A DNA stretch of 32,436 nt. Source: Alphaproteobacteria bacterium (GTDB lineage: Bacteria > Pseudomonadota > Alphaproteobacteria > Micavibrionales > Micavibrionaceae). Made by a program: the position numbers and the translations under genes. Below the pieces are notes generated by a model. It worked only from the letters and a program-made list of their open reading frames with translations. It had not been told where the DNA came from and made no database searches. Location of the stretch: assembly GCA_029880245.1 (NCBI GenBank), contig JAOUOR010000019.1, forward strand, positions 1 through 32,436, given 5' to 3'. Below, in pieces: positions 21,596 through 22,411 of this stretch (its first letter is position 1; every line of letters begins with the position of its first letter).

Positions 21596-22411
21596 TTATT
21601 TGCCCTTTTCTTTTCCTATAACAAAAATATAATCTCCATCTCCCGAGAATGAAGATTCAAACTTCATATCTCCTTCATTACCAATAAGCGCACTCTTGTA
21701 CCCGAGAGGTATAAGCATGTCCCATATATCATCAGGGTTAGCCCCTATTTGCTGTAGCCTGATTTGGCTTACCTCCAACATTATCGCCGGTTTAAATTTT
21801 GCAAGCGTTTCAGTTGCACCTCTCAGCATTTCATACTCAAAACCCTCTATGTCTGCTTTAATAAAATCAAGGCGATCCAACGAGAATTCCTTTACAAATG
21901 CATCTAGTGAAGTAATGCCAATCTCCTCTGTCTTGAACTTCCCGCCGGAGGTGTTTTCACCTATTTGTGCCAAACCAAACCCTAGAGAACCTGACTTTTT
22001 AATCGGTGTTTTAAGTGTTAAATTTTGTTTTTGAGCCCCTAATCCAAATGGAACTATTTCTACATTTTTCAAAGAACAAAGAGTTTTCACTTTATTTAGA
22101 ATAGATAACGGATACTTTCCCGGCTCAAAGGCATAAATCTGTCCTTCAGGGGCCATGCGTGAAAAAAGCTTTGCGAATTGCCCCGAATGCGCCCCTACGT
22201 CTATAACAACACTATCAGGTTTTATGTAGTTTCCCAGAAGTGGCCTTATCTCCTGATGATGCTGATAAAAAATAGCCTTTGCCAAGTGCACAAGCCACCG
22301 AACATTACTTCGGACAAAACCAACAGCAAACGCCGCGCCCTTCTCAAAAGAATGAGCGAGAGAGACGGCATTTACCGCTTCTTTGCCATATATAGTTCTC
22401 TGCTTGCTCAC
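21596..22411 (-). CDS. FkbM-family SAM-dependent methyltransferase, located between rpoB and rpoC
   Basis: The 271-residue protein has a class I SAM-binding fold: [11 protein letters not shown] (residues 69-79, motif I), YAFEPGKYP with an acidic Glu96 (motif II) and [16 protein letters not shown] (184-199), the FkbM-type signature. FkbM enzymes usually O-methylate sugars or natural products; the substrate here is unknown. It begins with GTG two bases after the rpoB stop, using an AAGGA formed by the last two rpoB codons, and stops one base before the rpoC ATG. It must therefore be co-transcribed and probably translationally coupled. G+C by hand is 322 of 780 (41%, 21601-22380) against about 50% in sampled rpoC lines, which suggests transfer from elsewhere. 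There is no membrane segment beyond a weakly hydrophobic stretch at residues 26-48. Confidence 0.88.

Follow-up and report, generated by a model that had tools for sequence, protein, structure and literature searches.

Introduction

The genes rpoB and rpoC, coding for the β and β′ subunits of RNA polymerase, are textbook examples of inseparable neighbours. Lineage-specific changes at their junction exist, as rpoB–rpoC fusions occur in Helicobacter and Wolbachia.

For the conserved gene cluster to which rpoBC belongs, the main text of Brandis 2021 (PMC8046335) describes a few insertions of unrelated genes, for example tusDCB between rpoBC and str and nrdHEF between rplL and rsmC. According to the same text, 65% of the rearrangements over ~2 Gy break joins between operons and leave the operons themselves intact, and rearrangement rates were raised in some lineages, namely Pasteurellales and the Streptococcaceae ancestor (PMC8046335). 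No insertion between rpoB and rpoC is mentioned in that main text (PMC8046335), and the literature searched, which excluded subscription journals and supplements, contains no report of a recurrent cargo site, or of any gene, between these two genes.

Here we analyse a stretch of 32,436 nucleotides (the window) from an alphaproteobacterium of the family Micavibrionaceae, a relative of the predator Micavibrio, in which a methyltransferase gene separates rpoB from rpoC. The window is one whole contig (JAOUOR010000019.1) of a 2.15-Mb draft genome (GCA_029880245.1) in 125 contigs, rated 100% complete.

Organization of the locus

The three genes lie on the minus strand of the window in the order rpoB, methyltransferase, rpoC. 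Both rpoB (22414–26658, 1414 aa) and rpoC (17359–21594, 1411 aa) are represented by open reading frames with all the expected Pfam domains. Between them lies the gene of a 271-aa FkbM-family SAM-dependent methyltransferase (MT; 21596–22411), which starts with GTG. The preliminary description had reported an intact gene with joints of 1–2 nt at this place, and this proved exact to the base: rpoB ends in ACT AAG GAA TAA, followed by AA and the GTG of the MT gene, 2 nt from the rpoB stop, and the MT gene ends in GGC AAA TAA, followed by a single A and the ATG of rpoC, 1 nt past the MT stop. As had also been noticed, the Shine–Dalgarno motif of the MT gene (AAGGA, 22418–22422, minus strand), 6 nt before the GTG, is formed by the last two codons of rpoB (AAG GAA). 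The start regions of the MT gene and of rpoC are predicted to have weak RNA folding.

No promoter- or terminator-like site was located at either MT joint in a scan of the rpoB–MT–rpoC region, where the frequency of such sites is close to that in shuffled sequence. With neither a promoter nor a terminator evident at its joints, the MT gene would be transcribed together with rpoBC. The arrangement of stops, starts and ribosome-binding sites suggests that the gene is probably translationally coupled on both sides: ribosomes leaving rpoB would re-initiate on the MT gene and, at its end, once more on rpoC. The outcome would be an RNA polymerase-like, growth-linked expression of the enzyme.

The MT gene had been described as AT-richer than its neighbours. 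This is correct, but the difference is modest (GC 0.412, GC3 0.36 and CAI 0.54, versus GC 0.47, GC3 0.42–0.45 and CAI 0.71 for rpoB and rpoC), and in base composition and codon adaptation the gene resembles the other non-ribosomal genes of the window. Two extra genes are present between rplA and rplJ (28135–28934, minus strand), one truncated-hemoglobin-like (PF01152, 5e-13), the other an 88-aa open reading frame with no assigned family. In the interval between rpoC and rpsL (14756–17277), one gene on the opposite strand codes for an apparent multi-pass membrane protein of 573 aa, and another gene for an apparent membrane protein of 252 aa; neither product has a Pfam match.

Empty sites in sister species

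Comparison of the rpoB–rpoC junction in related genomes, which the preliminary description had proposed as a check, revealed same-genus species with no insert, and the end of rpoB and the start of rpoC in the window match those of relatives. Gene-free gaps of 45 nt (G009), 47 nt (G005) and 69 nt (G001) were found within the genus, and none of the 11 same-genus genomes carries a close MT homologue. With its conserved neighbours intact and the site empty in sisters, the MT gene is a gene insertion.

The point of entry can be located with the help of a 13-mer, GAAAAGAAAAGGG (21603–21615, minus strand), which contains the Shine–Dalgarno motif of rpoC (AAGGG, 21603–21607). Among 354 loci it is present in three genomes only, those of the window, G005 (L033) and G073 (L069/L223), at every occurrence directly before rpoC. 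In the gene-free sister G005 it is the rpoC leader; in the window's genome this ancestral leader codes for the last residues of MT. Because GAAAAGAAAAGGG has been retained in the 3′ end of the MT gene, the most likely point of entry lies immediately upstream of the ribosome-binding site of rpoC, so that the C-terminus of the enzyme would now run through the leader.

The FkbM-family methyltransferase

MT matches PF05050 over the full-length domain (78.5 bits, cut-off 22.7; E 8e-22) and the NCBIfam model TIGR01444 (98.8 bits, cut-off 37.7; E 4e-28). SAM motifs are present, and residues D66, G73, E96, D187 and E189 are invariant in the alignment of relatives. A structure model of moderate confidence (mean pLDDT 68) has as its best fold match in the PDB the entry 2py6, ‘Methyltransferase FkbM’ (E=6e-7, prob 1.0, TM 0.46); as modelled, the protein has a class I Rossmann SAM-binding fold with the conserved motifs. 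A search of PDB sequences with MT gave no match, and a scan of a genome collection returned a single one, of 27% identity, in Flavobacterium.

The wider MT subfamily has a patchy distribution among Alphaproteobacteria, with matches at E<1e-25 in 39 of 385 genomes, and its members stand beside diverse genes. A relative follows enolase (eno) with an 8-nt overlap in G136, where a second GT25-like open reading frame, judged by eye, lies ~4 kb away; another follows cinA (G057), and a third is divergent from a GT25 LPS-type glycosyltransferase gene (G054). A second FkbM gene of the window's genome, 34% identical, lies directly before rlmB/trmH and overlaps it (L132:5710–7301, minus strand). In two other alphaproteobacterial genomes, belonging to two other families, a subfamily member follows flgD-flgE-flgK-flgL (L302:5617–11982; L307:134–6456), which hints at methylation of a flagellar glycan. 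A distantly related FkbM gene was also observed ~120 nt after rpoC in G113 (L271:1201–2022, minus strand).

FkbM enzymes are known to act on glycans, small molecules and natural products. As no glycan genes adjoin the MT gene in the window, a candidate substrate rests on family knowledge. Judging from the family and from the neighbours of its relatives, the most likely activity of MT is O-methylation of a sugar in a glycan of the cell surface or flagellum.

Survey of rpoB–rpoC junctions

The more interesting part of the picture is invisible from the window alone and concerns the whole family. We surveyed 97 junctions of the order, 76 from Micavibrionaceae and 21 from its other families, in genomes that are mostly drafts and many of them probably metagenome assemblies. 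In Micavibrionaceae the gap exceeds 200 nt at 29 of 76 junctions, distributed over 17 of 31 genera, and 400 nt at 19; a codirectional open reading frame of at least 60 aa is present in 26 of the 76 gaps. Only one of the 21 junctions from other families of the order exceeds 200 nt.

The first control, 68 junctions from other Alphaproteobacteria, included no gap above 192 nt. The second consisted of 47 loci (27 from a phylum search and 20 from outside the class, two genomes being repeats) and gave three gaps of 210–320 nt, none with an inserted gene: two of them reflect an rpoC with an extended N-terminus, and the third contains nothing that is convincing as a gene. For the pooled controls, gaps above 200 nt thus amount to 3/113 versus 29/76 in Micavibrionaceae (Fisher p ~1e-10, an optimistic value as species are not independent, which parsimony and the non-homology of the cargo address only partly). 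Gaps above 400 nt amount to 0/113 versus 19/76, and none of the 113 proteobacterial controls has an inserted gene.

Other joints of the cluster were compared in 41 genomes, of which 20 have rpoB–rpoC opened by more than 200 nt. By the same threshold, tight joints were opened in 0/35 cases for rpsL–rpsG, 0/24 for rplK–rplA, 2/36 for rplJ–rplL, 2/35 for rpsG–fusA and 4/28 for fusA–tuf, whereas rplA–rplJ, rplL–rpoB and rpoC–rpsL are wide throughout, in keeping with borders of transcription units or with leaders. This comparison indicates that the rpoB–rpoC joint of Micavibrionaceae behaves as the border of an operon would. Of the eight inserts at other tight joints, seven occur in genomes whose rpoB–rpoC gap is also occupied, suggesting that some lineages have generally loosened operons. 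Small open reading frames with no assigned family (63–155 aa) were seen at rplJ–rplL, rpsG–fusA or fusA–tuf in L204, L208, L211, L230, L231, L235 and L237.

Terminator-like hairpins were considered as a cause of this permissiveness and rejected, since GC-rich hairpins are no more common in the order (27/67) than in controls (27/66). Between rpoB and rpoC, two loci of the Micavibrio aeruginosavorus type, L049 and L090, have a hairpin with a T run that looks like a textbook intrinsic terminator. The reading of genomes with no rpoC match as larger insertions was also rejected: rpoB was found in 6 of 15 of them, only as partial genes and mostly at a contig end.

Diversity and turnover of the cargo

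At least 21 cargo sets with no detectable homology to each other occupy the Micavibrionaceae gaps. Six have a Pfam family: FkbM in the window's genome, a pair of MNT nucleotidyltransferase and HEPN/HepT (G011, G012, G104), SIMPL/DUF541 (G016, G073, G074, G104), RidA (G030), a FliL-like protein (G097), and a GIY-YIG nuclease with a zinc-ribbon-like open reading frame (G106). The remainder are proteins with no assigned family or apparently exported ones, of which one kind is common to G065 and G080 (29% identity); the small open reading frames of 73–101 aa may not all be genes. All-against-all profile comparison gave no support for a single hidden family of small cargo proteins, as only one pair stood well above decoys (G066–G037, over 20 residues). 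The toxin–antitoxin-like MNT–HEPN pair is found in gaps L034, L044 and L100, of three genera, and L100 adds SIMPL in a gap of 1736 nt. REP-like palindromes (TCATCCCGGCG..GCCGGGATGA), possibly small mobile repeats, recur in L066, L076, L078, L094, L111 and other gaps.

When the 30 occupied junctions were placed on a tree built from flanking residues of rpoB/rpoC, parsimony required 25 changes of state, which indicates fast gain and loss of cargo. Parsimony cannot tell gains from losses; the non-homology of the cargo argues for many gains.

Discussion

Taken together, these data make it likely that the rpoB–rpoC junction of Micavibrionaceae is a permissive cargo site and that the FkbM methyltransferase is the co-transcribed cargo of the window's species, an enzyme that does not act on RNA polymerase. 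Foreign or relocated genes would repeatedly enter downstream of the rpoB stop and ahead of the ribosome-binding site of rpoC, codirectionally with the operon, and would often be lost again. The preliminary description had considered the gene as cargo riding on a constitutive operon. The first part of this idea agrees with the absence of MT from the sampled sisters and with the unrelated genes in the same gap elsewhere. The term ‘constitutive’ may not suit this family: the RNA polymerase genes of M. aeruginosavorus, together with all 54 genes for its ribosomal proteins, are upregulated in the attachment (feeding) phase compared with the attack phase (PMC3189940).

Cargo could consequently gain feeding-phase expression, and one may hypothesize that it is retained for this reason. 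In a biphasic, predatory life cycle, cargo might be selected because it is expressed along with RNA polymerase in the feeding phase, and such selection would supplement the permissive cargo site without replacing it. We regard such selection as possible, and adopt it only tentatively. The rise of RNA polymerase and ribosomal genes on attachment speaks for it, as do the codirectionality of the cargo and its proximity to rpoB, 14 of 26 cargo reading frames starting no more than 20 nt from the end of rpoB. However, codirectionality is equally expected if selection simply removes antisense inserts, M. aeruginosavorus-type genomes have no cargo (gaps of 83–87 nt), and predation is not established for the window's species. 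Somewhat more doubtful still is the broader proposal that Micavibrionaceae use the junction as a natural expression slot, capturing cassettes, perhaps by recombination via the conserved flanks, and keeping them because expression locked to RNA polymerase suits a hunting and feeding life.

It is rather unlikely that the gap is specifically targeted by recombination or by a mobile element, with REP-like palindromes or with rpoB and rpoC flanks serving as homology arms. Palindromes of the TCATCCCGGC / TCATCCCCGC type do occur in about eight gaps, and the presence of MNT–HEPN in the gap of three genera and of SIMPL in that of two would fit such targeting. The MT gap, however, contains no such palindrome, and the MNT–HEPN copies are only 50–67% identical in protein, so that any exchange must be old. 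Nor does the MT insert bear the mobility gene or terminal repeats of a transposable element or integron cassette: none of the window's reading frames between rpoB and rpoC is a mobility gene, no integrase or transposase stands at the joints, and a repeat search of 21400–22650 found a single weak direct repeat and no inverted ones.

A link to transcription, such as modification of RNA polymerase, had also been suggested. That MT is kept by RNA polymerase as a functional partner, modifying it or tuning the β/β′ ratio, would accord with the tight coupling at both joints, but we consider this highly improbable. No sister species with an intact junction has MT, unrelated genes occupy the same place in other species, and relatives of the enzyme adjoin eno, cinA, rlmB and flgL; FkbM enzymes are moreover known for small-molecule and glycan substrates. 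As no species other than that of the window has an FkbM gene in the gap among the 97 junctions, linkage to rpoB/rpoC is not conserved, which makes modification of RNA polymerase by MT unlikely. Finally, an assembly chimera at 21595 or 22412, conceivable in a 125-contig draft, is very unlikely, since reading frame and ribosome-binding sites are kept at both joints, the end of rpoB and the start of rpoC agree with those of relatives, the rpoC leader of the sister is retained within the MT 3′ end, and comparable inserts occur in genomes that are close to complete, for example G034 (3 contigs) and G060 (8 contigs).

The permissive cargo site has implications beyond a single insertion. About a third of Micavibrionaceae species have parted rpoB and rpoC, mostly by unrelated genes, showing that the constraint on this pair can relax. 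The family thereby offers a natural insertion series for asking what co-expression of β and β′ requires, and the list of cargo points to genes that merit tests for a part in growth on prey.

Comparison with known systems

MT resembles the FkbM family (PF05050/TIGR01444; 2py6) in its full-length domain, SAM motifs and fold, and differs in its position inside rpoBC and in the lack of a solved structure near by sequence. The junction itself can be compared with the rpoB–rpoC fusions of Helicobacter and Wolbachia, which are likewise lineage-specific changes at the same place. They go in the opposite direction, however, the genes of Micavibrionaceae being pushed apart by extra genes. The closest parallel is provided by the cluster insertions described in the main text of Brandis 2021 (PMC8046335), where unrelated genes also enter the same conserved cluster and changes come in lineage-specific bursts. 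Unlike the insertions described there, those of Micavibrionaceae split rpoB from rpoC inside the operon, and do so recurrently, between species of one genus.
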